Source of the DNA: a candidate division WOR-1 bacterium RIFOXYB2_FULL_36_35
GTDB lineage: Bacteria; Margulisbacteria; WOR-1; XYC2-FULL-46-14; XYC2-FULL-37-10
DNA: 36,102 nucleotides
Assembly (NCBI GenBank): GCA_001771505.1
Contig: MEUA01000037.1
Coordinates: 1-36,102 of the forward strand
Direction: 5' to 3'
Below are positions 393-33,519 of this stretch, piece by piece (the first letter of the stretch is position 1; each line of letters begins with the position of its first letter). Under the pieces are notes generated by a model. It had not been told where the DNA came from. It made no database searches and was given only the letters and a program-made list of their open reading frames with translations. Made by a program: the position numbers and the translations under genes.

Positions 393-3300
393 TCAATAAC
401 TCATCTCCCCATCACCATCATCCCCCCGTCCCTTCTTTCTTTTTTCATCTATATCTACATTATTCAATTTAACTGTCAATGTTATAGCAGGACGAATATC
501 TTCCAATTTCTGAGCCGTTGAGCTTGTCACTATTTTATCTTCAAGTCGTCCCGCACTTCCTATCAGAGAAATTTCTGCAATCTTAACATCGCTTGCGCCA
601 CCTTGGGTCTTTGTTAAATATATAATGCCATCTTCGTCCGGAGGAGTAAACCCGCCATTCCAATCTCTAAGTAAGCTGTTCACAATGGGAGGTAACAACC
701 TATTCTGTTCTCTGCTAAAAATATAATTGCCATTCTTATCTACTATAACTACATCCATAAGAAGCTTTTTTGCAATTTCATATTCACCCCGATTTTCTAA
801 TCGGGGCTCATCTTCCTGTAAAACATCCTGATATGATTCAATAAAAGATAGAAAAGATGTAAATACCGATAAAAACTGAGGGAGCCTTGGATGCATCCAT
901 ACTTCTCCATTGCGAACCGCTTTACTATCGCTATTTCTTCTATCTCTTGCAAGATCAGAAGGATAAAAATCACCCCTCAATCTCACCCTGTCAAGGTATC
1001 CCAAAAATGCCTCTGCACTAAAAGAAAAATGTTTCTCTGATACAGAGTCATCCTCGGCACGCTGCAACGATACAGCCAATGACTCTGAATAAAAATCTAG
1101 TCCTGGACGATAATCCATGTAAGCTTCACCTTCTACTCTATCTTCCACGGACATAATCGCATACAACCTCTCTCTTGTATGATTTTTTGAGTAGTTTTCT
1201 ATAGCAGCAATCATTGCATCTCTATTTCCTCTGCAACTATCATAAATCTCAAGCATCTTGTTTCTTATGTTACGATAATATTCAAGCCTTAGGAAAGATA
1301 ACAGGCCATGGGCGCCCGTATCTGCCAATGTAAATAAAAGAGTACTATTTAAAAGCTCCGCATATTTTGCTTTATTTACTGTTACAGTATCTTCCAATAA
1401 CAAAAGATCTGTTACATCCTTGTCTTCAAGCATTTCCGCGAAAGCTATGGGAGAATCGTGCCCGACATAAAGATTTCCAAAGATGTGATGATATTTTATT
1501 GTAAGCTCAAGAATCTTTTTAACTGTTTCAACACTGTTGTCGTAATCAGCCTGATCCACAAGCTTTTTTAATGCGACTCTTTCAGTGTCAGTTAATTCTT
1601 TATTTTTATCTATACCATCATATAATTTCTTTTTATTTTTTACTTTATCATCATCATATTTTTTAAATACAACAATGCCATCATCACGTTTAGACTTATC
1701 AAATAGATCCTTTGCCTTCTTCATTATAGAAGTAACATCGTTTTCTGCAACCCTTAGTTCCCCCCACGCTCGAAGCCCTGCCCCCTCAAGAAAGTCTGTC
1801 CTCCTGACCCCTTCATACCCAGCTCTGTCGTGAAGAAGAATTTCAATATCCCCCGCCCCTGCTTTACCAAGATCGTGAGTAAGCGCCAATAAAACCCTAT
1901 ATTCCAAAGGGAACATAGCAGCCAACCCTCTCCACCACCTTAACATAGTCCCTTTCTTTGATTCACTATCAAAAGGAGCAAGAGATGATAACCCATCTCC
2001 TAAAACAGAATAAGAATCAGGTCTGCTAAAGCCAATTTCAACCATTAAAAGGGCTGTTAAAAGGATATGCCAAGGTGTCCCCATATCATGCAAAGAGACA
2101 TCCTGTCCCCATTGCGTCATAGGATATCTGCCAGTTCGCAACCTGCAGAATTCTTTTAAGTACTGCTGCAATTTACCAACAACAGAACTATTCTTATCTT
2201 TTGCATATTGTTCTGCAAAAAATTGCGCCATACTATTAAAATTAGCTCCATCTACTTTAGGATCCATAATCCCTTCATAAATTTCAGCCATAAGTCCCCT
2301 CACCAAAGAGACCCTTACAAGGTCAGTATCTATGGCAAGACTTGGAATAGGGATCTTTATCTCATGACCGCTCTCTACGACAACCCTTTCCATAAAAGTG
2401 ATGGCAGAGGCAATAACTTCATTTTTCGATTTGTCTACGGTACTAATTATCTTATCGTAGCCGTCTTTCCCCTCTTCTAGTTTTTTATGAACTGCAATTG
2501 CATGATCAACCCTATCTTTAGCAGAGCGACCTGTCTCTTTCTCTCTAGTTGCAAGCCTCTCTCTTATGGCCTTCTCATTTGCTTGTAAATAGAGAGTCAC
2601 AACAGGCTTCTCTATATTGCCTGTCATTTTTTCTTTTTCCAACATTTTATTAACAAGCACTTTAAGCATCCTTGCGATAAACGGCCCGCAGACAATCATA
2701 TGCGGCCCGCCCGTAATAACAGCTTTCAAAACATCAGCTTTTGCCACCGCGTACCTTACTCCAAATTCACCCTCAACAACAAGAAAAGATCCATCATTTT
2801 CTCGTCCTGTAAACTCATCTTTTGACATGGCGATCTCTGATGAGAATTGCTCTTTTTCATAATCAAATGTATGCCCTGCAACTTCTCTGTCTGTATAGAT
2901 AGGGATAACCTTTGCTTTCAGGGAACTCTTTACAGCCCCCTCAACAAAGGTAGATTTACCAACACCAGATGTCCCTGTTACGGTAAAAAGCTGAAATTTC
3001 TCTCCCGGCTTAAAACTAACGTCACTATACCTTTCTTCATAATATGGCGCCAATTTATCACTTGATAAACCTGACTTAGAAACGAGTTCGTTATTCCATT
3101 GTTTCAATCTTTCAGCCTCATTAATACAATCCCTCATTAAAAGTATCCCATGATTTACTGTCCAGTCATCAGGGGCATATCCCACAGGAAATCCGCTTGT
3201 AATTCCCCTAAAAGCGTAACCAAGATGATCAACATTAAGCACAGAACCATTGCGCTCAGCTAAAACGTTAATAACATCTAATATAGAAACTCTGCTAATT

Positions 3301-4046
3301 ACATTAGAATTGGAAGAACCAACAAGGGTATCATGGTTTGCAAAACATAAAGCTGTAATATCTTTATCTAAAAAGCCGATCAGATTAAGTCTTGCAAAAA
3401 ATTTGGCTATCTCTTTAACTCCATAGAGGGCGTCATCCTGCGAAGCCGATCTATGTCCGATATTTCCCCAGGGCTCCATCTCTCCCCACTTATAAAAAGA
3501 GGCACCGTTATTCATTATAAAATCGTAACGACGGGAATTCAAAGAATCAGCCGCCGTCATTTTACCTGAAATTACAGCCTCTATCGGCCTTGTGTCTCCT
3601 ACAATGTCCTTCAAAGCTTCATGAAAGCCTCTTTTAGCTTCACTTGTCGGTATCCCTCTTAAAACAGAACCAAACAGAGGAGCCCTTGGAAGAAGCCTGC
3701 TTGGATGCGCACAACACAGCCATTGGACTACTTCATCTCTTCTTGCTTCAGACAGTTTCCCGCCTCTAATGGCTTCTCCCCACGCATCCTTATAAAAAGC
3801 TTCCGGAAGCCCTGATTTTAAATGCGGCGCTACAAGAAGAGGAGAGCTAACATCAACAACAAATCCTTCATTTCTAAGCCTTTCCGCCGTCTCCATAATA
3901 AATTTCATGGGAACACCAGGAAGAACCATTCCATCAGGTTTAACATATACAACTGCATGGCTCAAAGGTGAAGAAGAAGACCGACTCCCTCTAAACCCTT
4001 TCAAAAATCCAACGCTTGATGCATCTATTCTATTTAAATTAGACAT
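393..4046 (-). CDS. Large NDK-like / guanylate-kinase-like / HD-domain fusion protein
   Basis: A 1217-residue protein. Residues about 29-220 resemble nucleoside diphosphate kinase: KPDG at 36-39, then N195-IG-H198 matching the NxxH active-site motif, then an EIAKFF tail as in NDKs. Residues about 352-550 resemble guanylate kinase: P-loop GTSGVGKS at 358-365, a TDREVAG/FDY segment like the GMK substrate-binding TTRxPRxGExxGxDY, and a late RERLATRE stretch. Residues about 640-915 look like an HD metal phosphohydrolase: H660, H724-D725 in THDLGK, H853/H854, H863 and D909. A palindromic DNA repeat is read in frame at residues 1079-1090 (DEPRLENRGEYE). The ATG at 4046 follows an AAGGTGA ribosome site. 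It is the last gene of a three-gene operon, 11 bases after the preceding stop. The combination suggests nucleotide phosphotransfer plus hydrolysis; the real substrate is unknown. The C-terminal 300 residues are unrecognised. Confidence 0.85.
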   Translation of the reverse strand: MSNLNRIDASSVGFLKGFRGSRSSSSPLSHAVVYVKPDGMVLPGVPMKFIMETAERLRNEGFVVDVSSPLLVAPHLKSGLPEAFYKDAWGEAIRGGKLSEARRDEVVQWLCCAHPSRLLPRAPLFGSVLRGIPTSEAKRGFHEALKDIVGDTRPIEAVISGKMTAADSLNSRRYDFIMNNGASFYKWGEMEPWGNIGHRSASQDDALYGVKEIAKFFARLNLIGFLDKDITALCFANHDTLVGSSNSNVISRVSILDVINVLAERNGSVLNVDHLGYAFRGITSGFPVGYAPDDWTVNHGILLMRDCINEAERLKQWNNELVSKSGLSSDKLAPYYEERYSDVSFKPGEKFQLFTVTGTSGVGKSTFVEGAVKSSLKAKVIPIYTDREVAGHTFDYEKEQFSSEIAMSKDEFTGRENDGSFLVVEGEFGVRYAVAKADVLKAVITGGPHMIVCGPFIARMLKVLVNKMLEKEKMTGNIEKPVVTLYLQANEKAIRERLATREKETGRSAKDRVDHAIAVHKKLEEGKDGYDKIISTVDKSKNEVIASAITFMERVVVESGHEIKIPIPSLAIDTDLVRVSLVRGLMAEIYEGIMDPKVDGANFNSMAQFFAEQYAKDKNSSVVGKLQQYLKEFCRLRTGRYPMTQWGQDVSLHDMGTPWHILLTALLMVEIGFSRPDSYSVLGDGLSSLAPFDSESKKGTMLRWWRGLAAMFPLEYRVLLALTHDLGKAGAGDIEILLHDRAGYEGVRRTDFLEGAGLRAWGELRVAENDVTSIMKKAKDLFDKSKRDDGIVVFKKYDDDKVKNKKKLYDGIDKNKELTDTERVALKKLVDQADYDNSVETVKKILELTIKYHHIFGNLYVGHDSPIAFAEMLEDKDVTDLLLLEDTVTVNKAKYAELLNSTLLFTLADTGAHGLLSFLRLEYYRNIRNKMLEIYDSCRGNRDAMIAAIENYSKNHTRERLYAIMSVEDRVEGEAYMDYRPGLDFYSESLAVSLQRAEDDSVSEKHFSFSAEAFLGYLDRVRLRGDFYPSDLARDRRNSDSKAVRNGEVWMHPRLPQFLSVFTSFLSFIESYQDVLQEDEPRLENRGEYEIAKKLLMDVVIVDKNGNYIFSREQNRLLPPIVNSLLRDWNGGFTPPDEDGIIYLTKTQGGASDVKIAEISLIGSAGRLEDKIVTSSTAQKLEDIRPAITLTVKLNNVDIDEKRKKGRGDDGDGEMSY
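785..810. repeat. CCCCGATT palindrome inside a coding region
   Basis: CCCCGATT, a 4-base loop TTCT and AATCGGGG form an 8-bp hairpin within the 1217-aa gene. Read on the minus strand it contributes the peptide DEPRLENRGE without breaking the frame. The same element occurs in the 31828-33519 gene in the same reading frame and in several intergenic places. Confidence 0.85.
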
Positions 4047-4057
4047 AATAATTCACC

Positions 4058-7000
4058 TTACCTATCCCAAATCTGCTTTGGAGTTCCCTCATAATAATTC
4101 TCCAGTAAATTTCCAAGCGATTTCCACAGCTGCCCCGCCCCAAAAATCACATCCTCAGGTTTTAATTTCTCCTTCGTAGAAATATATTGAGCAGCATCAA
4201 CCCTCCTACCGTCGGGAAACCTGACATCGGCATCTGCAACATCCTGTTCAAGCGCAAGAGTTAATCCTTCAAGCTCGGCATCTTCAGCATTTCCCATATG
4301 CCCCAAAACATATCTTGCGACAGTATCATCTCGAGTCGATTTTTTCTTGTAAATAACGCCTATTGCTCCTCGCCCTATTCTCTCATGCGTGGGGAGGGAA
4401 CCATCTTCCAAAGTTTGAAAAACTGTTGGCATAAGGATAACCGGATCTTCATAATCAAGACCATTTATCAACTTATAGTGAGGGATATAAAGCGGTTTGG
4501 CTACTTTTGCCTTGTTCACAATCACCCAAGGATTAACAACACTTCCTGAAGGTAGATCCCCTGCAACATAAGAGTGTTCCAGATCCCAAATTACAACACC
4601 GTGATATTTTTGCAATATTTCAAATATTTTGTCTTTCTTATCAGCTTGATCTCTTTCGCCAACATTTAGCCCTTCTAAATTAAAATCTCTTCTAAAATGA
4701 ACAACATAACTATCAAATTTTTCAGGTATAGTATATCCTTCGCCATCAATAAAACCTTGTGCTAGTAAAGCAGTATAGAAATCATCACCCAACTCAGCTT
4801 TTTCAACTTTCTTAGCCCCGACTCTAATCATTTGTGCCTTTTGGGCTCCTATCTTTATTGTTTTAGTTTTAATCTCTTCCCCTCTATCTAAAACTACCGC
4901 TTTACCTTTTGTCATTATTAAAAGCTCCAGCTTTCTTCTCAATTCATCTTCCGTTGATTCTCTTTGTCCTGCAAGTGGCTCTGGCCTACCGATTGAGCCA
5001 AAAAGATTCATCTTAACAGCTTTTAACCTAAGCTCATCGCTTGAAAGATCTTCAAAATATTCCTGAAGCACCTTGTTAGCTAAGCTATCCTCTCCTAAAC
5101 TATCCAAACCAAGCAAATTATTTTGATCTAAATTTAACCTCGTAATATTAATAAGAAGTTTTTTAACTAACTTCACGTCTAACTCTGCTCTTGTATCTTC
5201 TTTTTTTATAGAAACTCCCGCAAGCTCAATCCCCGGAACAAGATTATAAGGATAAAGGCTTGCCTGCTGTTGAAGCCGTTTTGCATCCCTAAATGCGGCA
5301 TTTTGATGCATAAGATCAAAATGTTCCTGGTGACTATCCACAATAGTTCCACCATCGTTAAATCTACTCCCGACAGCAACAGCTACATTGTGTAATCTAT
5401 AGGCTTTCAATGAAACACGCATATAATCAAACCAGTCACGAGGATCTACATGTTTAAACTCATCTTTTTCACGAACCTTCATCCAAGCTCTGGCACGTAT
5501 TAAACGCTCAAGTGGAGTTCCAGCTATAACAACACAATCTCGCTTATCAACCTTCAAGTTGCGAACATATCCTTCTGTCACTTCAAAATCGTTAAAACCA
5601 AACTCCTCTTTAAATTTATCCTGAAGTTCAGGGTAATCTTGCATTTTATCAATCAATGCAAGGAGATCAGTTCTAGTCTTTTCAAGCTCTTTAACTTCTT
5701 CTAGCAATGCCGCTCTCTTTTTATTTCTTGCCTCTCTGAATCCTTCAAACATTGCACGAATAAACACCCCAGCCCAATCATACCAAGGGTTTTTGCTTAA
5801 AAGATTCATAAGCTCAATCTGTCTTCCATCATCCAAAACAGTAAAAGACATTCTGCTGAGTTCTCCGCCAAGGTCGCGAAGAAGGACCTGTTTTAAAGCA
5901 TACAAGAAAGTATTCAAATAGCTGTGTATAAATCCGTCTGCAACATCTCTCAAAACTTTCCAAGCTTCAGCATACTTGAGAGTAATCCCCAACTCTTTTC
6001 CAATTTCATCCCATTCTTTCTTTGTGGCAGATCTTCCCGCAGCAAAAACAAGAGTTGTCCAAGCTTCTTCGGCTTTTCCGATCTTTTTAAGATCTCTCAT
6101 TTTATCTGTAGTATCCAATGCCTCTTTTAACCACTCAGGGACATGAACTCCTGCCTTATGAACAAATTTGCCAGTAATAAACAGGTTAAACCTGTCAAAG
6201 TCGAGGCTTAAATCCTTCAAAATAACTTTGCCAGCTTCTTTGTATACCTCTCCAACGGCCATTTTCCCAAGCTGTTCATCACTAATATCTACGGCATATC
6301 CTGCCATTTCAAGAACTAAGCGCCTTACAACCCTTCGCAGTTTTTCTATCTCCTTAGGTTTCTCTTCCATGTCATAAAGGCATCCCATTAAAACCAAAAG
6401 ATGTCCTAAATCTAAAATACTCCCATATTGAGTATCAGGTTTTCCTTCTATCTCAACTTTAGAAGAAAATACTATAATTCCTTCATTCGCATCTCTTAAA
6501 TATTTCTCTCCCACTCTGATTGGAGCAGTTATAATATTAAAGAAAAACCATAAATTCTGATCACAGCCTGCAAGGATGGCAAAATCTTTACCTGCGTTTG
6601 GCAACTGTATGGCAATTGGAACAACACAAGTAAAAGAACATGTCTCCTGCGTTGAATTAAGTACAGCAGTAAACCCTTTATCAATATCTTCTGCCGTAGA
6701 CTCAACACCCATCCTGGTCCCCTTTCCCCCTTTACTTACAAATATAACAATCTTCCCCCCATTAAACATATGATACTTCTTTTCAGCAATAAGGGACATC
6801 TGGACAAGGCCTGCAACACTCCCTAGGGCTAAAGCCTCGTTTTGATCTTTTCTAATATCATCTTTATCCGTAGAACCAACGGTTACAACTCCATCATCTT
6901 CACTGCGGGTAACAGCTCGTAAAAACCCGTTTTTCAGAACTGATTCCAGTGTCAATCTTGCTCTCTCTCTCCCTGATGCATCTGTCTCATACTCAGTTGC

Positions 7001-8845
7001 AAGGAACTGAACATGATCAACTTTATATTGGCCTACATAATCACCAACAACTTGATCTTTAACAATTATCGAACCATCCTTTTGAATAATGCCATCCTGA
7101 ATCCTTCTGTTTCCATCTTCTTCCTTTTTACCAAGGAATCTAATTTTGTTTTCACCAATCTCTTCGGCGCAAACATACTCATCCATACCACCTTCTACAC
7201 ACAACTTAATAAGTTTAATTTTGCCGGTTTTTAATTTTTGTAAATACTCAAAAGTGCTTCTATCATCTTCATCAGGAAGTGGATCTGCGCTCGGCTCTCT
7301 TAGCTGAACTTTTTTTTCCTTCGAAAGATCACATCTGATTTTTTCTAATCTATCATTTAGTCCAAGCCTTGAAAGGACATTTGTCTTTGCCCAAACTCTG
7401 TTTGCCCTACACAATGTCGTCTGCTCTAAAAATATAAGAGTCTCTTCAATGGATGTATCCAATTCGGTTTCGACATCTCTTTGCTTATTAGCCTTCCTTC
7501 TATATAAATCCTCGATACATTTTCTAAGTTCAATCTTATCCTCTTTATCTCCCAACGTAGGATAAAGAGCTCTGGCGAGTACCAACCCATCTTCAATTAC
7601 TCTTCTATCATCCGAAAGAAGGGCTGCTTTTGCATAGCTTAAAACTTCCTGCTCTCTTCCCGCAAACATACTTGCCAAGATTTTTGTAACAGATTTCCTG
7701 ATAACTCTTGATGATCCGGGATCTGTGAAAACATTTAAAAGGTGATCAAAAGATATACCAACCTTACTTGGAGTAGATTCTTCCGCTAAACAGAATCTTA
7801 CAAAAGACCCTCCAACAAGATCTGGGACTTTGCTATCCGCTCTTTTAGGATTCTTACTTTTTTCAAAAGCATCTTGAGATTTAATTGCTTTACACCCAAC
7901 ATCCAAAGCATTTCTTAAATTCGTAGGCAAAGCAACTTTTTTGGCATAATCAGCTCCGTTTTCACTTAAAACAAGGTAAGCAAGATAGTAAATAAGTCCA
8001 TCTTCCCCTCCCTCCAAAAACTCTACAAAACGGTTCATTATGCCATTCTTTAAAACATTAAGTTCATCCGATACCAATTTCTGTTGATCTCCTGTAGCTA
8101 AAGGAGAAGGATCTCCTTTAAGAACGCGCAAAGCATCTCCTGCAAGACTCCCCAACCGTTCACTTTTTAATAATCTCTCAAAAACTTTTCTTGCCGTATA
8201 TATATCAGTAAGTCTTTCTCCATTAATGTATCTATTTAAAACATCCTCTTTCTCTTCTTCTCTCACACTACTACTTAAAAGCCTTTTAAAATTAGTAACC
8301 CTATCTCTCATGACAGCATTTGTAAGGTATCCACCACTCCCACCTCCTGATGCCGCAACAGAAGTACTTTCCGCACCCCCACCTGATGCCTCTGGCCTAA
8401 CTTCATCTCCTTTTAAATGGACATGATCCAGCTTAGCCCTCTCCGCTTTTGCATCCTCAATTAATCCAGGGTTTAATCCTGTACAAACAACCAAATTACT
8501 TTCTGGATTGGCGGCGCCAAAACGATCGATAAGACTATTCAATAAGCCAGGGATAGAAGATTTCTTGCCAACAAGATCGCGGGCTTTTAATAACTCAATG
8601 GTCCCCTCACTTAAAGGCCCAACTTTGGCTTGAAATATATCCAGATCAAGTTTCCCGTCACCTGTAACAAGGCTTCTATCAGACGCTAAATGTGTAGCTA
8701 AACGAAGATTATTCCCAACTGCCGGAACAAGCGCATCTCTTAGTGCAACTCTAAATAATCTCCCTCCGGGAGTACAACTAAACTTATTTCCGGTCATTGA
8801 CATAACCGCTCTTTGCAATAATTTATTTTTAATAGGATTGACCAT
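4058..8845 (-). CDS. Giant protein with a nucleotidyltransferase-like GGxGTRMG motif
   Basis: A 1595-residue protein that I do not recognise as a whole. The clearest signal is KGGKGTRMG at residues 705-713, preceded by a hydrophobic strand (KIVIFVS). This matches the GGxGTR(M/L)G signature of sugar-phosphate nucleotidyltransferases (UDP-sugar pyrophosphorylase type). A hydrophobic strand ending in GCD at about 760-762 may be the metal-binding Asp. The usual following PK is not evident. There is a Gly/Ser-rich linker at about 154-172, an alpha-helical N-terminal third and a charged helix around 1038-1090. No signal peptide or clear membrane helix is seen. The start at 8845 has GGAG about 10 bases upstream. 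Its neighbours are 12 bases upstream and 11 bases downstream, so translation of all three genes is probably coordinated. A UDPGP-like activity is possible but rests on one motif. Confidence 0.8.
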   Translation of the reverse strand: MVNPIKNKLLQRAVMSMTGNKFSCTPGGRLFRVALRDALVPAVGNNLRLATHLASDRSLVTGDGKLDLDIFQAKVGPLSEGTIELLKARDLVGKKSSIPGLLNSLIDRFGAANPESNLVVCTGLNPGLIEDAKAERAKLDHVHLKGDEVRPEASGGGAESTSVAASGGGSGGYLTNAVMRDRVTNFKRLLSSSVREEEKEDVLNRYINGERLTDIYTARKVFERLLKSERLGSLAGDALRVLKGDPSPLATGDQQKLVSDELNVLKNGIMNRFVEFLEGGEDGLIYYLAYLVLSENGADYAKKVALPTNLRNALDVGCKAIKSQDAFEKSKNPKRADSKVPDLVGGSFVRFCLAEESTPSKVGISFDHLLNVFTDPGSSRVIRKSVTKILASMFAGREQEVLSYAKAALLSDDRRVIEDGLVLARALYPTLGDKEDKIELRKCIEDLYRRKANKQRDVETELDTSIEETLIFLEQTTLCRANRVWAKTNVLSRLGLNDRLEKIRCDLSKEKKVQLREPSADPLPDEDDRSTFEYLQKLKTGKIKLIKLCVEGGMDEYVCAEEIGENKIRFLGKKEEDGNRRIQDGIIQKDGSIIVKDQVVGDYVGQYKVDHVQFLATEYETDASGRERARLTLESVLKNGFLRAVTRSEDDGVVTVGSTDKDDIRKDQNEALALGSVAGLVQMSLIAEKKYHMFNGGKIVIFVSKGGKGTRMGVESTAEDIDKGFTAVLNSTQETCSFTCVVPIAIQLPNAGKDFAILAGCDQNLWFFFNIITAPIRVGEKYLRDANEGIIVFSSKVEIEGKPDTQYGSILDLGHLLVLMGCLYDMEEKPKEIEKLRRVVRRLVLEMAGYAVDISDEQLGKMAVGEVYKEAGKVILKDLSLDFDRFNLFITGKFVHKAGVHVPEWLKEALDTTDKMRDLKKIGKAEEAWTTLVFAAGRSATKKEWDEIGKELGITLKYAEAWKVLRDVADGFIHSYLNTFLYALKQVLLRDLGGELSRMSFTVLDDGRQIELMNLLSKNPWYDWAGVFIRAMFEGFREARNKKRAALLEEVKELEKTRTDLLALIDKMQDYPELQDKFKEEFGFNDFEVTEGYVRNLKVDKRDCVVIAGTPLERLIRARAWMKVREKDEFKHVDPRDWFDYMRVSLKAYRLHNVAVAVGSRFNDGGTIVDSHQEHFDLMHQNAAFRDAKRLQQQASLYPYNLVPGIELAGVSIKKEDTRAELDVKLVKKLLINITRLNLDQNNLLGLDSLGEDSLANKVLQEYFEDLSSDELRLKAVKMNLFGSIGRPEPLAGQRESTEDELRRKLELLIMTKGKAVVLDRGEEIKTKTIKIGAQKAQMIRVGAKKVEKAELGDDFYTALLAQGFIDGEGYTIPEKFDSYVVHFRRDFNLEGLNVGERDQADKKDKIFEILQKYHGVVIWDLEHSYVAGDLPSGSVVNPWVIVNKAKVAKPLYIPHYKLINGLDYEDPVILMPTVFQTLEDGSLPTHERIGRGAIGVIYKKKSTRDDTVARYVLGHMGNAEDAELEGLTLALEQDVADADVRFPDGRRVDAAQYISTKEKLKPEDVIFGAGQLWKSLGNLLENYYEGTPKQIWDR

Positions 8846-8857
8846 AACCTATTCTCC

Positions 8858-10432
8858 TCACTTAGAACTTTTTATCACTGCTACCGCGGCGCCGCCGCTA
8901 TCCCCACCATCACTTACCCCGGCAGACACAGTCCTCTTCTCACCTAACAACTCAATAGCATCTGTAAAACTACCGAGAACTGCGGTTGCAAACCCAGCTT
9001 CTTTTGGATCAAAACCACCTTTTGAATAGTCGCTCAAGCGTTTTTTTATTCCATCTATATCAGGGCCAGCATACTTGATCTTTTTTCTCATCCTAATTCT
9101 ATATTTATTCGCAAAGTTTCTGATTTTTGAAGCAACAATCTTTACTTGAGAATCATTATTTGAAGAAGAAAAAAGGACATTCACCCTTGAAATAAAAGAA
9201 TCCAAATCTCTTAACTCGTTTAGCCTGACAAATTCGTTATCTTGTTTGATGTGCTCTAATGCAAGCAATAAACCGCTCGAGTTTGTTACATAAACAAAAA
9301 GTTCCGCAGGATTCAGTACTTCACTCATAGACCCCAAACATCTCTCAAACTGCGACAAAGAGCTTTTTATCATATTGAGATCTTCATTGGTTGTAACTGA
9401 TTCATCACAAAGAAAATCTTCATTGTCAACAAAATTTAAAATATGTGCTAATTCTGCTGTAATTTCCTGAATTTCTCTCTTTGTTAACGACAAAAACATC
9501 GTATTAATCTGTAAAATCAGATCACTCGCCTCCATCCGCGCTTTTTGCCTTTCTCCTCTATTCATTTGAGGTTTCTCTACAATCTGCCTGATAGAATATG
9601 TTAGCTCATGCCTTCTAACGTAACGAAAAAGGAGGGGAAGATTTAAGATCGCACTGTCATTCGCTTTTAAATATTCTCGAATTCCGACAGTTGCTTCATC
9701 AACTAAAATAATATCCTCTTCATAATAATCTTTTAAAAGAAGCCCCAAAGCCCTCATTCTAGAGACTCTTAATGCGGAATCCAAAAGCTCCAAAACCTGT
9801 TTACCCAAAAAATGCATCTCTCCTTTAAGCATTGGAGGAAGTAATATCATTCCATCTTTTATATACCCCAATTCAGAATCTATAAGTCTTTTTAGTCTAT
9901 CGGGAATGAGAGCTCTTACCTTTCCGACAAACTCATTTCCCAAGTAGTGTTTCGATCTTTCTAGTCCATCATTAATCTCTTCTCTCGCGGCATCAACATT
10001 AATCTCTGAATAATCATCAATCAATCTAGCTAAATTTTCTGAATCTTCTTCAAAACTTTTCACAAAACATTTTTTAAAGCTATCAATAACTCTCCCTCTT
10101 GCAATCTCAAGTGTTACAACCCCTATGACTCCGGAAGCAAAAATGCCAAGCGCAGAAACAAAATTAGAATAATATAAATATCCGGTACCATCTATCAACC
10201 CATGGGAAAGAGAAGAAAAATCAACGTAAACACCAAGCCTTTCTCCCAATGCCATTGATAAGCTGCTGTATGCCGCGACAGCAGTACCAACACGACCGAG
10301 GAATCTACTTATCAATCTATTATTCGCAAGCATAGATTTGCTCAGCTTCTCATTAACCAAACGGAGGGATTCAGCATACCCATTTTTGGGAATTAATGCA
10401 TCTGGTGTATTATTTACTGCTCTAATTGCCAT
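8858..10432 (-). CDS. Helical membrane-associated protein, first gene of the large operon
   Basis: An unrecognised protein of 524 residues from the ATG at 10432; a GTG at 10438 would make 526. The ATG is preferred because GAGGTG sits five bases before it and would abut the GTG. Numbering from the GTG, two hydrophobic segments near residues 50-66 and 91-114 could be membrane helices. The rest looks mainly helical and charged, and the C-terminus is Gly/Ser-rich. The stop codon overlaps the ribosome binding site of the next gene (TGAGGAG). It heads the operon containing the two giant proteins and is preceded by a motif shared with the 31828-33519 gene. A membrane-anchoring or scaffold role for the operon is inference. 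Confidence 0.8.
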   Translation of the reverse strand: MAIRAVNNTPDALIPKNGYAESLRLVNEKLSKSMLANNRLISRFLGRVGTAVAAYSSLSMALGERLGVYVDFSSLSHGLIDGTGYLYYSNFVSALGIFASGVIGVVTLEIARGRVIDSFKKCFVKSFEEDSENLARLIDDYSEINVDAAREEINDGLERSKHYLGNEFVGKVRALIPDRLKRLIDSELGYIKDGMILLPPMLKGEMHFLGKQVLELLDSALRVSRMRALGLLLKDYYEEDIILVDEATVGIREYLKANDSAILNLPLLFRYVRRHELTYSIRQIVEKPQMNRGERQKARMEASDLILQINTMFLSLTKREIQEITAELAHILNFVDNEDFLCDESVTTNEDLNMIKSSLSQFERCLGSMSEVLNPAELFVYVTNSSGLLLALEHIKQDNEFVRLNELRDLDSFISRVNVLFSSSNNDSQVKIVASKIRNFANKYRIRMRKKIKYAGPDIDGIKKRLSDYSKGGFDPKEAGFATAVLGSFTDAIELLGEKRTVSAGVSDGGDSGGAAVAVIKSSK

Positions 10433-10464
10433 TTCCACACCTCACACAATTCAATCTATTTCCC

Positions 10465-11155: not shown

Positions 11156-12115
11156 ATGGAGAGACTGTTAAAAAGCAAATTCAAAACAGGTAAAAAAATC
11201 GGCGAAAATTTCTTTTCTCTTACCTATGACGGCGCCACTTTATCGGGAAACCAGTCTATAATAATAAAGATTTATAAAAGAGGAACTTTAAATTCCCCGC
11301 TTATAAAAACAATGAAACAAAAGGTAAAAATCCTGCAAACAGAAATCCATCCTCGGATTGTCAAGCTTTTAGACGGTGATTACGGGTGGCAGGGATTTTA
11401 TTATGTACGTCCGTTTATAAAAGGGGTTCCTCTTAAAGATTTAATAAAAAATAAAACAATAAAACCGGATGAAGCGGAAGGATATATTGTACAAATATGC
11501 GAAGCTTTGGAAGCCACCCATAAAAGAGGAATAATACATGGCGCGTTATCCGAAAACAATGTTTTAATTGATGAAAAAGGGGTAAAACTTACCGATTTTG
11601 TAATAGAAGGAGATATAAAAGAATCCCCTTCGCAAAAAGCAATGGCAATTATAGAAAATGAAGAGACGCTCTCTCCAGAAGAATTGTCAGGGTGCCGAGC
11701 CTCTTTTTCTTCCGACATCTTCGCAACAGGAATATTACTTTATAAAATGCTCCTGTTTAAATCCCCTTTTCAAAAACAGATCCAAAAACTTAAAGGTAAT
11801 GTTGAATTACATTCAGATTTAACAAAATATCAAAAAGATATTATAAAAAAAGCGTTGGAGCCGGACCCGAGATTAAGATTTAAAAATATTTCAGAGTTAT
11901 CTCAAAGCATAAAAAATAAAAATGTTATAGACAACACAGTAGAGTCAGATTATTTTCAAATAGAACTGGAAAATGTCCCCAACCCTAAAGAGATTGAAGT
12001 TCGTGAAATAAAAAAAGAGACTGAAAAAAGTTTTTTTATGGCAAAAATAGTATTGCTTGCAGCTTTAGCAGGTATTGTCTATGCTGTTTTAAGCTCACTA
12101 TTGGGAGGACGTTAA
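11156..12115 (+). CDS. Membrane-anchored Ser/Thr protein pseudokinase (PknB/PrkC-like)
   Basis: A 319-residue protein with a Hanks-type kinase fold and a C-terminal membrane helix at about 293-314. The VAIK lysine is kept (K38 in IIIKIY). The catalytic HRD is replaced by HGA (128-130), so the catalytic Asp is Ala; N135 remains. DFG is DFV (147-149), and the glycine-rich loop is degenerate (IGENFFSLTYDG). The APE-like SPE (173-175) and the SDIFATGILLYKM helix are intact. These losses argue for an inactive, perhaps ATP-binding or scaffolding, kinase. The following gene encodes a separate membrane-anchored PASTA domain, as if a PrkC-type receptor kinase had been divided in two. Rpe follows, as it does after prkC in many Gram-positive bacteria. 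Confidence 0.85.
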   Translation: MERLLKSKFKTGKKIGENFFSLTYDGATLSGNQSIIIKIYKRGTLNSPLIKTMKQKVKILQTEIHPRIVKLLDGDYGWQGFYYVRPFIKGVPLKDLIKNKTIKPDEAEGYIVQICEALEATHKRGIIHGALSENNVLIDEKGVKLTDFVIEGDIKESPSQKAMAIIENEETLSPEELSGCRASFSSDIFATGILLYKMLLFKSPFQKQIQKLKGNVELHSDLTKYQKDIIKKALEPDPRLRFKNISELSQSIKNKNVIDNTVESDYFQIELENVPNPKEIEVREIKKETEKSFFMAKIVLLAALAGIVYAVLSSLLGGR

Positions 12116-12168: not shown

Positions 12169-12597
12169 ATGTACAACACATTATTAATATATTTTATATT
12201 TTTATTCTTCGTAGCTGTTGTTTTGCTCTTTATTGCCGTTAAATTACAGTTGAAAAACCCTTTTCTCTTTATGGGAATTATAGTGTCAACAATTATTTTA
12301 TCTTTTTTAGCAGGATATTTATATTTTGCCTACTTCAATTCGATTCCCGAAGCAATTGTCCCTGACATCATAGGCATGAATGAAGGAGAAGCAATAAAAA
12401 GGATCGAAGATGCTGGATTAAAAGCAAAAATAGAGGCTAAATATGATAACTCAATTATTGTAACCAATCAGCATCCTGAACCTGGTAAAGTAGTAAAAAT
12501 AGGAAGAATTATTTCGATCACAATAGGCAACTACGAAATAGATTCCATGCAAAATAATGAAGAATTACCCCCAACCCCGTTTCAAAGTCCCCTTTAG
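12169..12597 (+). CDS. Two-helix membrane protein with a single PASTA domain
   Basis: A 142-residue protein. Two hydrophobic segments at about 4-24 and 34-56 are likely membrane helices. A PASTA domain covers about 62-117: VPDIIGM, the EAIKRIEDAGL helix, and the closing strand VKIGRIISITIG. PASTA domains bind peptidoglycan or muropeptides and usually form the extracellular part of PrkC/Stk1 kinases or of class B PBPs. Here it is a separate polypeptide beside a kinase-like protein that lacks its own sensor, so the two probably act together at the membrane. No clear Shine-Dalgarno precedes the ATG. The tail is short and proline-rich. Confidence 0.8.
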   Translation: MYNTLLIYFIFLFFVAVVLLFIAVKLQLKNPFLFMGIIVSTIILSFLAGYLYFAYFNSIPEAIVPDIIGMNEGEAIKRIEDAGLKAKIEAKYDNSIIVTNQHPEPGKVVKIGRIISITIGNYEIDSMQNNEELPPTPFQSPL

Positions 12598-16737: not shown

Positions 16738-18000
16738 ATGGCCGAACAAATAAACCCCAATGCTCCATTAAATCCAATACAAGAAGCAATCGCAATTTCT
16801 TCACAAGCTATTTTTACTGCCGCAGACAAAGAAATGATCAGAAATCGCGTAGGAGACAGGCTGGGAGACTACAACACTATAAGAAACTTTATAGACCTTG
16901 CAAGAGAAATGATGGACAAAACCACAACTATAGACAAACCAGAGATAGAGGTTCAGGAAGGGCTCCCTCAAAACGATTTAAGAACAAGAGTAAAATTAGA
17001 AAGGCGACTTATTAAAACTTCCCCCTCATTTAATCCTCATGAAAGAGTATCCATCTCAAAAGAAGAGACAAAACCGGAAGACAAATTCGGGAAAGAAAAC
17101 GAGGCCTCACTTGAAGAATACGCGGTTTTATACGGGCACAAACTTTTAGGGTTGCCCATAAATTATGAAACATTAATAGTCTTGGAAAAAAATATTGATC
17201 CTAAGCTTATAACAGATATACAATTAAAAACTGAGAAAGCTATTTACGACTTGTTGTCACAACTTGTTATGGAATTTTTCAACGCTAAAATCAACGATCC
17301 TAAGCTTGCTTCTTTTGTTGTATTACAATCCCAAAGGCCACAAAGGCTTTTAGATTATTATTCAGGGAAAATAACAGTAAATTTATCGGATTTAATAGAA
17401 ATGATAAAAGAGCTGGAAATTCCATGGGAAAGATTAAGAGTCCTTTTTAGTAAAGAGACTATAATTCTTACGGATGAAGCAATAAGAATAAAACATATTG
17501 AAATAAAAATAAAATCAGAAATACAATCTCTCGAGGATCAATTAAGAAACAATACAATTCAAACTTTAATCACAGAAAACTTAATAGAAAAATACAGCCT
17601 ATCAATAGAAAACAATTTTATAAAAAGAAAACTTTTGACTTTAAAAGAGACCGAGAAGAGAATGGAAGAAGTCATACATGAAGCTAAAAGATTGGCATGG
17701 TTAAAATCGGTAGTCATACTAAAAGAACTTCACTTAAATAGAATTCTATCGTCAACAAAAAAAGATTTTGAGCGATTAACAAGAAAAATAAACAATCATA
17801 CGTTAAGAACCCGAGAACTTGGTTTGCATATAAGTCCTGATGGAGCAAAATGGATAGAAGCAAAATTGGAAGATATGGCAAGCCAGGCAGCAGCATATAA
17901 AATTGAGCTTCTAAAATCGATGCAGACCCTTTCATACGAAGAAGAAAGAGAAAAAGATATAAAGTGGCTATCTGAAATAATTGTTAAACTAAAAGGATAA
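16738..18000 (+). CDS. Unrecognised helical protein
   Basis: A 420-residue protein with no signal peptide or membrane helix. It is largely helical and highly charged; residues about 250-340 look coiled-coil prone (repeated ENLIEKYSLS, KRMEEVIHEAK and similar stretches). I do not recognise a domain. A TATACT box ends only 4 bases before the ATG, and there is no Shine-Dalgarno, so the mRNA may be leaderless. A palindromic hairpin follows the stop codon. Function unknown. Confidence 0.75.
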   Translation: MAEQINPNAPLNPIQEAIAISSQAIFTAADKEMIRNRVGDRLGDYNTIRNFIDLAREMMDKTTTIDKPEIEVQEGLPQNDLRTRVKLERRLIKTSPSFNPHERVSISKEETKPEDKFGKENEASLEEYAVLYGHKLLGLPINYETLIVLEKNIDPKLITDIQLKTEKAIYDLLSQLVMEFFNAKINDPKLASFVVLQSQRPQRLLDYYSGKITVNLSDLIEMIKELEIPWERLRVLFSKETIILTDEAIRIKHIEIKIKSEIQSLEDQLRNNTIQTLITENLIEKYSLSIENNFIKRKLLTLKETEKRMEEVIHEAKRLAWLKSVVILKELHLNRILSSTKKDFERLTRKINNHTLRTRELGLHISPDGAKWIEAKLEDMASQAAAYKIELLKSMQTLSYEEEREKDIKWLSEIIVKLKG

Positions 18001-18820: not shown

Positions 18821-19138
18821 TTATATATCCTTTTTCCAATCTTCATTTTCTCGTCTCTTGGATATATCCATTGCTCCATGCACAATTGCAATAATCGCTA
18901 TTTCTTCTTTCTTTGCAAAATATACAATTCTATAGTTATAAAAAAATGTTTCCCTTAAATTTTCATCTGCAAACTCAGGAACAACTCTGCCCAATTTAGG
19001 AAATAAAGATATTTTCTCAACAGAATGGATTAACTTTTCTATAAAAATCATTGAAAAAAGAGGAGAGCCTTTTGATATATAAGAATCAATTTCTTTTAAG
19101 TGATCTTTTGCTAGTTCCGACCAGACGATTTTCGCCAT
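18821..19138 (-). CDS. ParE/RelE-family toxin
   Basis: A 105-residue protein with the ParE-type pattern: WSELAKDHLKEIDSYI at the N-terminus, the central helix with KLGRVVPEF, and RETFFYNYRIVYF followed by AIIAIVHGAMD. ParE-type toxins poison gyrase, RelE-type cleave mRNA; this sequence looks closer to ParE, but the target cannot be told. It overlaps the upstream antitoxin gene by 28 bases, the usual toxin-antitoxin arrangement, and directly precedes queE. Confidence 0.85.
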   Translation of the reverse strand: MAKIVWSELAKDHLKEIDSYISKGSPLFSMIFIEKLIHSVEKISLFPKLGRVVPEFADENLRETFFYNYRIVYFAKKEEIAIIAIVHGAMDISKRRENEDWKKDI

Positions 19139-19394: not shown

Positions 19395-20849
19395 ATGAAA
19401 ACATCAAAAATTGATCAATTTAAAGCAGAGTTAAGCCGAATCGAGAAATATGCTAAAGCAAAAAACATAGAGCAATTACGACTATCGCTCCATGATTTCT
19501 ACAAACTCCCCTTGCATGAATATGGCCAAGAAAACTCTCAAACAGTAGCTGATTTGTGGGACAAGTTTTTTTCTTTAATGCTTAAACTTATTAGATGGGA
19601 TGATATTCAAATTAAAAATAGTGCGTTTCACAATATTAAAATCGGCCTTTGGAGTGAGAAATTGTCAAACAGAATAGATACACATTTCAATAAGATTCTC
19701 CCTGTTTTTGGGGTAATTTTCGAAGAAAAACAAGAATGGTTTTTGGAGTTTTTTGATTATTTTATCTATTTTTTAGAGACCCCACATCCTCTTATAAACA
19801 AATGGTTAAATGACATTGAGAAAGGAAAAACAGCTCCTCATCTTCAAAAAAATTATATTGAGGCGGCTAAAATATTTTATTTTTATCCGAAAAAAACATG
19901 GGATGAAGCAAAATATTTTCTTTTTTCCGCACTCGATCATTCAGATATTTTAGTCAGAGCTTATGCCGCGAAAGTTCTTGGAATGTGGTATTACAACCAT
20001 GCTACAGAAAATCTTTCACCATCTCTAAAAGAGACAATAAAATATCTGACTGAAAGAGAAATAAACAGACCAGGCATTGCCGGCCCTTTTATAAGTGAAT
20101 ATTACTTAAATATGGAGATTGAACTATTTGAAAAAGAAAGTGGATTAAATATTAAAGAGTGGATATTTGAAATATTAGAAAAACGAAAAACGGCTGAGCC
20201 CGATACTCTCCCATGTTCCAACGGTCTCGATTTTTATAGCCATGAAATATTTTCTACGAGGGAGGAGCTTTTGCATCTCATCAAAATCGGCCAGATTGCT
20301 ATAGCCCAGGAATCAGCAGGAGATAACAATTTAGATTTTAAGAAAATTTTACTGGAAATAAAAGACCATGACGATCCCAAGGTAATTAGGGATGTCTCTT
20401 TTGCTTTGGCCTCTTATTATAAAACTATACATCCAAAAGGACAAAAGCTTGGAATGGTTAAAGTGTTTAATCATCTTCCAAATATTGAAATTATTCTTTT
20501 AAACTTTGATATTAACACTGCCTCATATTGGCATTCAATTTTAATCTCCCCTAAAAAGCCAAAAGATAATTTTACAGATAAAAAAGCATGGGAACTAATC
20601 GAATGGCTATTGCCCCCTTCTATACGCGGCAAGGAGTTGCATCGTTCTCCCTGGGATGATGAACAATTAAAACAGGTTGCTCCCAAATATCCCTGGACAT
20701 ATGTTACTTATACAAACAGAGCATCAATACGTTTAGATGGTTCTAATAGCGATAAAATCTGGAAGAAAATAACTATAAATTCCATTCTTCCCCTGTTTTT
20801 ATGGGATCCGGAAACGCTGCTAAATTTTGAAATTTTGCCCCAAATCTAA
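19395..20849 (+). CDS. Unrecognised helical-repeat-like protein
   Basis: A 484-residue protein without signal peptide or membrane helix. The sequence is rich in Trp, Phe and Tyr and appears mainly helical; segments such as SALDHSDILVRAYAAKVLGM and the later KDHDDPKVIRDVSFALASYY look like HEAT-type repeats. This suggests an alpha-solenoid binding surface rather than an enzyme. No family recognised. There is no Shine-Dalgarno; several TATAAT-like boxes lie within 30 bases upstream. The next gene starts 15 bases after its stop. Confidence 0.75.
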   Translation: MKTSKIDQFKAELSRIEKYAKAKNIEQLRLSLHDFYKLPLHEYGQENSQTVADLWDKFFSLMLKLIRWDDIQIKNSAFHNIKIGLWSEKLSNRIDTHFNKILPVFGVIFEEKQEWFLEFFDYFIYFLETPHPLINKWLNDIEKGKTAPHLQKNYIEAAKIFYFYPKKTWDEAKYFLFSALDHSDILVRAYAAKVLGMWYYNHATENLSPSLKETIKYLTEREINRPGIAGPFISEYYLNMEIELFEKESGLNIKEWIFEILEKRKTAEPDTLPCSNGLDFYSHEIFSTREELLHLIKIGQIAIAQESAGDNNLDFKKILLEIKDHDDPKVIRDVSFALASYYKTIHPKGQKLGMVKVFNHLPNIEIILLNFDINTASYWHSILISPKKPKDNFTDKKAWELIEWLLPPSIRGKELHRSPWDDEQLKQVAPKYPWTYVTYTNRASIRLDGSNSDKIWKKITINSILPLFLWDPETLLNFEILPQI

Positions 20850-20864
20850 CGATAACAATTCATC

Positions 20865-22058
20865 ATGAGAATATTCAATAAAGTTATCTCTTTTACCATG
20901 GACAATGCGGTTAAAAAAGAAGTCTCTCCAGATTTATTAAAGAGCTTGAAAGCCATAAGAGAAGGAAAAGCAAGCCTTACTCCTCAACTAATAGATGAAA
21001 TTAAAAGATGCGGCATTCCAGTAATCGCAAGTCGGATACCAACTGCAATTAAAAACGGGAGCATTGAAGCTACGTTACTATCAGGGAGAACAAACAGACC
21101 AACAGCTGCCAGCGTAAGGAACTTAAGCCCTATAGAAAAATACAGACTTATAGCTGATATACCGAAAAATGAGCGCGATCCAATCGAAGAATACTTATTT
21201 GATAATTATTACAAACGGTATATGTTCAATGAAACAAAAATTCAAGAGATCAGGCCATTAACAACAGAAGAAAAACAACTCAAAGACAATTTAAGTAAAC
21301 TTTTAAAAAGAGGAGATGCAATAAAAACCTTATTACAAAAAGATGATGATACAGCATGGGCAATTCTACTTGAAGACCAAAAATTTGCCAAATCTCTCAT
21401 GGAAGACAAAAACAATCTCCACATATTAAAAAGGATATTAAAACTTTGCGAAAAAGAACATCCTCAAGCAAAAGCTTTTTTAGAGAGAAATCAAAATAAA
21501 CTTACAGCTATTATTAAGGAATCTGATGATCCAGATTTAATTAGCAGTTTGAAAACTGAGTTTTTAGTCCTACGCCTTCAAAACACTATTACAATTGAAC
21601 CATCACGGTCATTAATAAACCTTTTAAAAGAATGTTATGCACATCTATCAAGCGACATAAAAATATCTTCAGAAAGAATAGACTACCTCACCAATAACAT
21701 CACGTCTAATATGATAGATAGATTAAATCCTCAAACTGTCTCTTTTTTCTCAGATGCGAATATCCTATGTAAAACAATCTGGCTATGGTTTTTTCCCTTC
21801 TTTCATCTTGTCCATATAGCGGAACAAATTCTCTCTTCACGAGACATCTCGTTTCAAAGAAAGAATCCCTCCATACCTCCAAACTTAAATGCCGAAAACC
21901 TTGCAAGAAGAGTAGCAAGAACTTTAGGCAATAAAGACCACATCCAAAGGTTGCAGGAATTATTTACAGAAGTAGAAGGTGAAAAACACTGGTTATATGC
22001 AGAATACCAAAGAGCGATACAACTTAGAGATGAGCTGGAAAACCTGCCAGTAGTATAA
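20865..22058 (+). CDS. Unrecognised helical protein
   Basis: A 397-residue protein, predicted helical and charged, with one aromatic hydrophobic segment near 302-320 (TIWLWFFPFFHLVHIA) that might associate with membrane. No recognisable domain. It follows the previous gene by 15 bases on the same strand, so they are probably one transcript. No Shine-Dalgarno is evident before the ATG; an in-frame ATG at residue 12 is an alternative start. A 36-base copy of the end of scpB lies 14 bases after its stop. Confidence 0.7.
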   Translation: MRIFNKVISFTMDNAVKKEVSPDLLKSLKAIREGKASLTPQLIDEIKRCGIPVIASRIPTAIKNGSIEATLLSGRTNRPTAASVRNLSPIEKYRLIADIPKNERDPIEEYLFDNYYKRYMFNETKIQEIRPLTTEEKQLKDNLSKLLKRGDAIKTLLQKDDDTAWAILLEDQKFAKSLMEDKNNLHILKRILKLCEKEHPQAKAFLERNQNKLTAIIKESDDPDLISSLKTEFLVLRLQNTITIEPSRSLINLLKECYAHLSSDIKISSERIDYLTNNITSNMIDRLNPQTVSFFSDANILCKTIWLWFFPFFHLVHIAEQILSSRDISFQRKNPSIPPNLNAENLARRVARTLGNKDHIQRLQELFTEVEGEKHWLYAEYQRAIQLRDELENLPVV

Positions 22059-31827: not shown

Positions 31828-33519
31828 TCAAGCCAACATCAGCATAGGTTCTCTCTCTATTACAGAGGGGATCCCTCTTTTTAATAAAATTGATCTACTA
31901 ATAAATCGGGCCACAAGAGATGCTTCATTTGTAAAAGAGAGATTACCACTGTACCGCGAGTTTCCCTTAGCAATTTTCCCTTGAAAATAAGGGGCAATAT
32001 TAGTTATCCTCAATTTTTCTTTTCCATCCTGCTGATCAAAAAAAATAGAAATTGCAGAATCTTCTGTAATTGGAGTAATAATAACCGGCACAGAATAATC
32101 GATTGCGGCTTCCACATGAGCTGCGACTCCTCCGTTCCCTTCACAGGCAAGCAGTAGATCAGAATATCCATTGCCGACATAAGCGCTGCTATAAGCCTTA
32201 TCTGTGTCATCTGTTAAAACATAGGGGGAGATAAACTTTGAATGACTATTCACATAATCCGCATAAAGTGGTCTTACAACGCCATATCCGCGAAACCCTC
32301 TGCTCAATAGTTTATCCAAAAAGACTCTATCAGAACCGTAATCACTCATGCCATGAATCACAAAGATTTCATAAGGGGAGATAGCATAATGCCATCTCAG
32401 ATAAAAAACAAGCTTATCAACAAAATTTTCAACAAAGCTTTTTTCAGCAAAAGAATTGGGCTTATTATTATATTGTGATCTGCCGGCTACGGATAAAACA
32501 AAAGATACATCTCTGAATAATCCAGCGCCTATTTGCTCTAAAGGGATAGGGTTTTCTTTTATATCATTAAATTTTGACATAACATCCCCAACCCCTCCAC
32601 TTAATTCATACAAAACCTGAGCCAGAGCCTCTTCACGGTCTATAACCTTTATTCTTCTGGACACTTCTTCATTGCTCCATCGCCTACCACTAATAAAAGT
32701 CAATTTATCACTGAGCATTCCATAAGCATAATTTGGATTATCCCTGACAAGGAGGCAGCAATTCCCCATTTTCAGTCTTTTTGATCCATTACTATCTAAA
32801 CCATTTTGCCCAACAATCTCTTCCCATGGAGGAAGCGATTCATCCGCGTACATCACAACAGATTTATTCTGCAATATTGACTGGGGAACATCATGTAAAA
32901 AGGTATACTCGGCGCCGCCCATGCAAAAGACAAGATCGCTAAACCCGCTACTCTCCCGAGAGTAATCTGTAATTCCATCTCCGGTACGATAAATATGCGG
33001 CATGGTTACGCTGTCAGTTCTGACATAATCAGCTGTCTTTATATACCATTCGTTCGCAAAAGCAATAACAGGAAGCCCGAACCTAAAAGCAATCTCTCTT
33101 GTAAAAACATCAATAATTCCTTCAGTAAGCGAAGTGGCAACATTAAAATGTTCTTCAGGATAAACGCCAACACGACGAAGAATTGAAAATGCTTTGCAGG
33201 TAATATCTTCCGCCTTACGCATAAAAACACCCCTTGCCCCCTCATCCATAATCCCCGATCTCCCTAAAAAGAGAATAGTCTTTCTCTCTCCAGGCTTTAA
33301 AATATCCCTCAAACGATCAGAATCAATCAGACGGCTGGCAACAAGGTCATCTTTAGTCCTTGGCACTTCAAATTCATCTTCACCCCGATTTCCTAATCGG
33401 GGTTCATCAGGCCTAACCAACCTTCCTCTTGAATCTGGCGCCAAAGGAATATAAGGAATAGCAGGTTTGCAATAATTAACAGAAGGAATTAGTTCTTTTA
33501 ATAATCTCAATCCGGTCAC
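31828..33519 (-). CDS. Protein with two SLOG-like Rossmann halves
   Basis: A 563-residue protein; GTG start with AAGGAG seven bases upstream. No signal peptide or membrane helix. Each half has the outline of a SLOG/lysine-decarboxylase-like Rossmann domain. First half (about 78-225): strand KTILFLGRSGIMDEGA, then LPVIAFANEWYI, then SDLVFCMGGAEYTFLHDVPQ with NKSVVMY. Second half (about 335-482): VSFVLSVAGRSQ, then FVIHGMSDYGSDRVFLDKL, GFRGYGVVRP, and SDLLLACEGNGGVAAHVEAA with VPVIITPI. Such folds bind nucleotides or nucleotide derivatives. Residues about 38-49 (DEPRLGNRGEDE) come from an in-frame palindromic repeat. Its upstream motif is shared with the 393-10438 operon. The SLOG assignment is by pattern only. 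Confidence 0.8.
   Translation of the reverse strand: MTGLRLLKELIPSVNYCKPAIPYIPLAPDSRGRLVRPDEPRLGNRGEDEFEVPRTKDDLVASRLIDSDRLRDILKPGERKTILFLGRSGIMDEGARGVFMRKAEDITCKAFSILRRVGVYPEEHFNVATSLTEGIIDVFTREIAFRFGLPVIAFANEWYIKTADYVRTDSVTMPHIYRTGDGITDYSRESSGFSDLVFCMGGAEYTFLHDVPQSILQNKSVVMYADESLPPWEEIVGQNGLDSNGSKRLKMGNCCLLVRDNPNYAYGMLSDKLTFISGRRWSNEEVSRRIKVIDREEALAQVLYELSGGVGDVMSKFNDIKENPIPLEQIGAGLFRDVSFVLSVAGRSQYNNKPNSFAEKSFVENFVDKLVFYLRWHYAISPYEIFVIHGMSDYGSDRVFLDKLLSRGFRGYGVVRPLYADYVNSHSKFISPYVLTDDTDKAYSSAYVGNGYSDLLLACEGNGGVAAHVEAAIDYSVPVIITPITEDSAISIFFDQQDGKEKLRITNIAPYFQGKIAKGNSRYSGNLSFTNEASLVARFISRSILLKRGIPSVIEREPMLMLA
33381..33406. repeat. CCCCGATT palindrome inside a coding region, second case
   Basis: CCCCGATT, loop TCCT, AATCGGGG within the 563-aa gene. 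It is read in the same frame as the copy at 785-810, giving DEPRLGNRGE. Confidence 0.85.

Follow-up and report, generated by a model that had tools for sequence, protein, structure and literature searches.

Contig C37 of the candidate division WOR-1 bacterium RIFOXYB2_FULL_36_35 (MEUA01000037.1; 36,102 nucleotides) was analysed in its entirety and is called the window hereafter; it belongs to a genome (G000) of 1.95 Mb that is 96% complete. WOR-1 bacteria are uncultured and form a lineage near the cyanobacteria. They have been equated with the Saganbacteria (PMC6349859). This work deals with three large genes, designated C, B and A in this order, which all lie on the minus strand at window positions 393-10438 and are separated by gaps of only 12 and 11 base pairs (bp). 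Gene C (8858-10438, GTG start) encodes a helical protein of 526 amino acids that has a hydrophobic segment and, at its C-terminus, a Gly-rich tail. Gene B (4058-8845) encodes 1595 amino acids, namely a long N-terminal region, a core resembling sugar-1-phosphate nucleotidyltransferases and a hexapeptide-like C-terminus, while the 1217-residue product of gene A (393-4046) joins a nucleoside diphosphate kinase (NDK)-like domain, a P-loop domain of the guanylate kinase (GMK)/PhnN type and an HD domain. A first-pass annotation of this DNA had described a three-gene operon with gaps of 12 and 11 bases and unfamiliar products. The coordinates, gaps and sizes that it gave were borne out, and the label "unfamiliar" was correct, since a Pfam scan of A, B and C yielded no model above cut-off on any of them. 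Scans for sigma-70-type promoters and terminators around the operon stayed at chance level and were not used.

Protein searches, which covered 74 genomes of the phylum, indicated that the operon is conserved beyond its own family. A was found in genomes G073 and G048, and its HD part in G061; B was found in G073 and G048, and its nucleotidyltransferase part in G062. G073 and G048 represent two further families within the class. The order C-B-A is kept in each of them, with spacings of -4/+2 bp and 12/12 bp, respectively; recurrence of the gene order elsewhere, which the first-pass annotation had proposed to look for, was therefore found. The orthologues of these families share their motifs with the window proteins at 25-35% identity and, given the order and tight spacing at such divergence, this conservation is more than chance. 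The A homologue of G073 comprises 962 amino acids, and that of G048 is interrupted by a stretch of N and by the end of a contig; because of this location, the split was not counted against conservation. No homologue of C was detected by sequence search; in its position, G073 and G048 have genes of 384 and 537 amino acids that align weakly to C and possess similar Gly-rich tails. Profile searches extended the family to G069 and G062, whose GMK-HD proteins are shorter. The distribution is nevertheless patchy, because two further members of the window's family, with near-complete genomes, do not have the operon; in scans of genome collections, G073 was the only genome found. IMG/VR and phage and plasmid records contained no relatives, in searches one of which was pattern-based and not very sensitive.

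The three domains that the first-pass annotation had assigned to A all survived, in view of profile matches, PDB matches and retained ligands, and the motif positions it gave for the first two, NIGH at 195-198 and the P-loop GTSGVGKST at 358-366, were accurate. The NDK-like domain (window 3402-3962, minus strand; residues about 29-215, with KPD at 36-38) is a real one, as judged from profile and site comparisons. When the three operon members were compared by hhalign with some 20 true NDKs of related genomes, the result was 96.4% (95.0% under slightly different options), with an alignment that runs collinearly from KPD to NxxH across some 140 columns; the same profile gave less than 2% against guanylate kinases and nucleotidyltransferases as controls. 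In a PDB profile search, all ten matches at E ≤ 5, the best of them at E 0.008, belonged to NDKs or to a protein with an NDK domain. Residues equivalent to those of the NDK site (K36, Y85, T152, R173, N195 and H198) are all present in the window protein, and the NxxH motif, NIGH in the window, reads NAIH in G073 and NGWH in G048. A thus has KPD, FY, T, R and NxxH in the same collinear arrangement as nucleoside diphosphate kinases (PF00334), but it differs from them by long insertions and by its fusion to two other domains, and it falls far below the Pfam cut-off (best value 0.064 in one relative, no match in the window protein). The genome moreover encodes a separate, normal NDK besides A.

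The second domain of A (window 2412-2999, minus strand; residues about 350-545) belongs, on profile evidence, to the guanylate-kinase/PhnN superfamily. Comparison by hhalign with true guanylate kinases gave 98.2%, with controls below 1%, and PDB guanylate kinases were matched at 2e-5 with the three operon members and at 4e-18 when G062 and G069 were added; the A-family profile also retrieves the true guanylate kinases of the phylum. The similarity of A to NDK and to the guanylate-kinase superfamily, for which the first-pass annotation had proposed profile searches, was thus recovered by both hhalign and PDB profiles. Substrate specificity is another matter. The same annotation had suggested GMP as the substrate, in a GMP to GDP to GTP series. 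However, the GMP-recognition stretch TTRxPRxGExxGxDYxF, intact in G062 and partial in G069, is lost save one Arg in the window, G073 and G048. In line with this, the window domain alone scored better in NCBIfam against PhnN (1.8e-5) than against guanyl_kin (5.9e-4), both far below the curated cut-offs. GMP specificity of A is therefore unlikely as judged from its residues, and A as a GMP-to-GTP enzyme was set aside because the GMP-site residues are missing. Relative to guanylate kinase (PF00625) and PhnN ribose 1,5-bisphosphokinase (TIGR02322), the domain keeps the P-loop and the core, with a near full-length profile match, but in the window's branch it lacks the GMP-recognition motif, scores under the curated cut-offs and is part of a fusion.

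The third domain of A is an HD domain (window 1242-2084, minus strand; residues about 655-935, with H660, H724-D725, H739, H853 and D909). The THDLGK motif noted in the first-pass annotation is present, although its end had been placed one residue off, the true span being 723-728. H724, D725, H739, H853 and D909 are invariant in all six homologues, as is H660 in the five that cover this site. The set H-HD-H-H-D is of the type found in binuclear HD enzymes. A thus carries the H, HD, H, H, D ligands of the HD-domain phosphohydrolases (PF01966), but with large insertions and with no match to a functional subfamily; the Pfam score of the window protein was 10.7 bits, for a cut-off of 22, and the best E-value, 8e-4, was obtained in a relative. 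A weak resemblance to the HD domain of exopolyphosphatase was also observed. The idea of the first-pass annotation that A could both make and degrade a nucleotide finds partial support only, and a cycle in which the HD domain acts on the kinase product is unproven.

A related possibility is that A is a regulator, whose kinase and HD domains would form and destroy a nucleotide signal acting on the polymer synthase, in the way that cyclic di-GMP controls Bcs, the cellulose synthase system. Polysaccharide synthases are classically regulated by nucleotides, the HD ligand set is of the binuclear type, and possible synthesis and hydrolysis domains are fused in A, as the first-pass annotation had proposed. 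However, neither a cyclase nor an oligonucleotide-synthetase domain was found, no effector domain was identified, and the products of NDK and GMK are ordinary nucleotides; we regard such a signalling role as decidedly improbable. It could alternatively be argued that the NDK, GMK and HD domains are relics that serve for binding or as scaffolds, like those of MAGUK and axonemal guanylate-kinase-like proteins, and that the operon provides the structural base of a complex in the envelope, with no nucleotide turnover. The very low sequence similarity, the long linker and helical regions and the loss of the GMP-recognition residues in the window's branch would fit this, and the top PDB match of the wider kinase profile was indeed the multi-GK axonemal protein FAP42. 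Yet the P-loop Lys K364, the NDK-site residues including NxxH and the HD ligands are kept across orthologues that are only 25-35% identical, which is unexpected for relics and disfavours this explanation. It appears unlikely to us, although less so than the signalling role.

Protein B offers a possible outlet for nucleoside triphosphates. Its core (window 5321-6763, minus strand; residues about 695-1175) contains GGKGTR at 706-711, K723, D762, EKP at 828-830 and D1164-G-G-T1167, and this order, GGxGTR, K, D, EKP and DxGT, is the one seen in GlgC/RmlA-type nucleotidyltransferases. The nucleotidyltransferase-like GGxGTRMG motif noticed in the first-pass annotation is thus present, as GGKGTRMG at 706-713, and is accompanied by further motifs in the family order. 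The seven homologues all keep eight residues (R711, K723, D762, E828, K829, D1164, G1166 and T1167), while the Gly-rich loop varies; G707/G709 and G724 also appear conserved in the alignment. The best PDB matches of the B profile include GlgC and RmlA at EKP and DxGT, at weak E-values from 0.07 (GlgC) to 2, hhalign against NTP_transferases reached 57%, confined to the DxGT region, and Pfam gave no match to PF00483 in B. Towards the C-terminus, a region resembling a left-handed beta-helix of hexapeptide type (window 4436-4603, minus strand; residues about 1415-1470) was recognised from alignments and from weak PDB profile matches to hexapeptide carbonic anhydrases and acetyltransferases (E 0.015-2). 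On these grounds B is likely a very divergent sugar-1-phosphate nucleotidyltransferase. It resembles ADP-glucose pyrophosphorylase and RmlA-type enzymes (PF00483) with a hexapeptide C-terminus in motif order and hexapeptide-like repeats, but differs in the distance from EKP to DxGT, which amounts to hundreds of residues, and in having an N-terminal region of about 590 amino acids. A further difference is the starch-synthase (GT5) half to which the core is joined in G062 and G069, and with which the tandem B-like proteins of these genomes start. GMK-HD proteins and nucleotidyltransferase fusions are likewise encoded together in the diverged loci of G062 and G069, and that of G062 has a GH8 gene too (1e-22). 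Tandem paralogues made of a GT5 N-terminal half, a divergent nucleotidyltransferase core and a hexapeptide-like C-terminus occur in loci L019 (8236-13556) and L043 (10621-16782), with GMK-HD, PfkB, SLOG and ARMT1-like genes nearby. As for C, the first-pass annotation had called it membrane-associated, which is plausible but weak, because it shows a single clear hydrophobic segment (residues 94-112).

The genomic surroundings of the operon suggest in which context these proteins may act. In G073 and G048, gene A faces, on the opposite strand, a divergent paralogue of adenylosuccinate synthetase (PurA), followed by the gene of a giant protein (1836 and 2293 amino acids, respectively) and then by a GH8 gene, after which G073 has an 1867-residue protein with weak TPR matches. 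A profile of the giant protein matched exactly three of the 74 genomes, G073, G048 and the window's own, the same three that have the complete operon. In the window's genome, these genes are found on contig C24, where the giant gene appears as two overlapping open reading frames with the PurA paralogue before it and GH8 after it. The C24 GH8 protein (Pfam 3e-11; NCBIfam BcsZ 1.2e-12, below the equivalog cut-off) carries a twin-arginine-like signal, and beyond it lies a 1947-residue TPR protein (TPRs at E 2e-11) with a C-terminus that looks barrel-like, judged by eye only. Downstream of A, the end of the window (positions 1-392) contains a repeat of about 57 bp, shared with the start of C24, and a REP-like palindrome at 131-152. 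The two contig ends have in common this direct repeat, with one mismatch, and pieces of the REP-like element, as expected if assembly was interrupted by a repeat lying between A and the PurA paralogue; to judge from these ends, C37 and C24 are probably adjacent. The core of the giant protein shows conserved DxDY, ESED and RWxRGN motifs. Three of its four PDB matches were BcsA, at a QxxRW stretch and the following transmembrane helices, with E-values of 5-6 that are not significant alone, and hhalign of the giant protein with GT2 proteins of relatives provided no support.

This neighbourhood bears on two further explanations. The patchy distribution and the large multidomain proteins would fit a system for phage defence or conflict, with nucleotide processing at its core, but PADLOC yielded only weak P-loop matches, the linked genes are of polysaccharide type, and the searches of phage and plasmid records and of IMG/VR, one of them pattern-based and not very sensitive, brought up nothing related; we consider such a system very improbable. 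The second concerns the PurA paralogue. Housekeeping NDK and PurA are located elsewhere in G000, G073 and G048, so the NDK and PurA copies of the locus are extra and presumably serve it. A specialised nucleotide- or nucleoside-derived product could accordingly be envisaged, built by phosphate transfer (A), aspartate ligation (PurA paralogue) and nucleotidyl transfer (B), and decorating or regulating a polymer. The divergent PurA paralogue present in the locus of all three genomes besides the housekeeping PurA, the PhnN-like score of the kinase domain and the SLOG, PfkB and ARMT1-like genes of the diverged loci favour such a product. GH8, TPR/barrel-like and BcsA-like genes rather suggest a polysaccharide as the main product, and no small-molecule exporter or tailoring set was seen, so that we give this explanation little credence, ranking it between the structural platform and the signalling role. 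Another divergent PurA paralogue was observed in a second cassette, together with a protein bearing a DxSGS-like (VWA-type) motif and a protein of about 300 amino acids, in L159 (G000:C4, 5888-10184), L160 (G073:C3, 9063-13124) and L161 (G072:C32, 153-3734), with 41-52% identity among these three genomes, which include the window's own.

The explanation that we favour, at about even confidence, is that the operon represents the cytoplasmic part, devoted to supply, of an exopolysaccharide locus of the synthase-dependent (cellulose/Bcs-like) kind, in a divergent version with giant genes. Because it lies beside cellulose-type-looking assembly genes in related genomes, the operon probably prepares activated building blocks. 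From a mechanistic point of view, the substrate phosphorylated by the P-loop kinase domain of A would be a nucleotide or a ribose phosphate, and the NDK domain of A would turn nucleoside diphosphates (NDP) into triphosphates (NTP). The GlgC/RmlA-like protein B would spend the NTP to activate a sugar-1-phosphate. Polymerisation of the sugar would fall to the giant BcsA-like membrane protein, and the NDP set free in this reaction would go back to A. The HD domain may hydrolyse a phosphate by-product or serve as a brake, C may tie A and B to the membrane, and the GH8 and TPR proteins would trim and export the polymer. The locus resembles Bcs and other synthase-dependent exopolysaccharide loci in having a BcsZ-like GH8, and perhaps also in a TPR protein with an apparently barrel-like C-terminus (which would be a BcsC-like architecture) and in a membrane protein whose DxD, ED and RWxRG motifs may be BcsA-like. 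By contrast, we know of no counterpart in Bcs loci of the A, B, C operon and the PurA paralogue. The literature search, likewise, found nothing relevant on NDK/GMK/HD fusions or on Saganbacteria polysaccharide loci, in agreement with the first-pass annotation, which knew of no described system with this layout.

Several observations weigh against this supply role. The synthase candidate is, unlike that of Bcs, a giant protein with no significant match to any known family in Pfam and other libraries, and in the window's genome the downstream genes sit on a separate contig. Pfam scans of the genes showed no BcsB, PilZ or other Bcs parts, although no specific search was made. The assignment of B as a likely nucleotidyltransferase is built on motifs and weak profile matches. 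Sugar activation does not account for the PurA paralogue, nor does the proposed cycle offer the HD domain an obvious place. Finally, AlphaFold2 models of A and of the C-terminal part of the G073 B protein, with the window protein as sole second row, had a predicted local distance difference test (pLDDT) score of 30 and were not used for fold searches.

Exopolysaccharide synthases normally use the general cell pools of NTPs and nucleotide sugars. A more far-reaching version of the supply role, which we hold to be doubtful, is that the locus would form a self-contained machine for nucleotide recycling and sugar activation, made of giant fusions that work together with an equally giant polysaccharide synthase, itself of a new family. 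Nucleoside mono- or diphosphates from polymerisation would be recharged on the spot, by a substrate channelling unlike any described, and the PurA-type ligase would add a modification.

The rest of the window contains other features that deserve mention. Divergent from the operon lie genes for a Ser/Thr protein kinase (11156-12115) and a PASTA-domain protein (12169-12597), possibly a split PknB. A ParE-family toxin-like gene (18821-19138) adjoins a radical-SAM gene, and a protein of the deoxyhypusine-synthase family is encoded, in a bacterium, at 34571-35680 (Pfam 8e-85). Four open reading frames of 397-563 amino acids (16738-18000, 19395-20849, 20865-22058 and 31828-33519) have no Pfam match at 1e-3.

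If the proposed supply role is true, a locus with its own NDK-like, GMK/PhnN-like and nucleotidyltransferase-like domains, built into giant fusions beside a synthase-like protein of no recognisable family, would constitute a new solution to the supply of substrate for polymer synthesis. Little is known about the surface chemistry of this lineage, a neighbour of the cyanobacteria. The supply role also provides a first testable hypothesis for the WOR-1 giant proteins that lack family matches.

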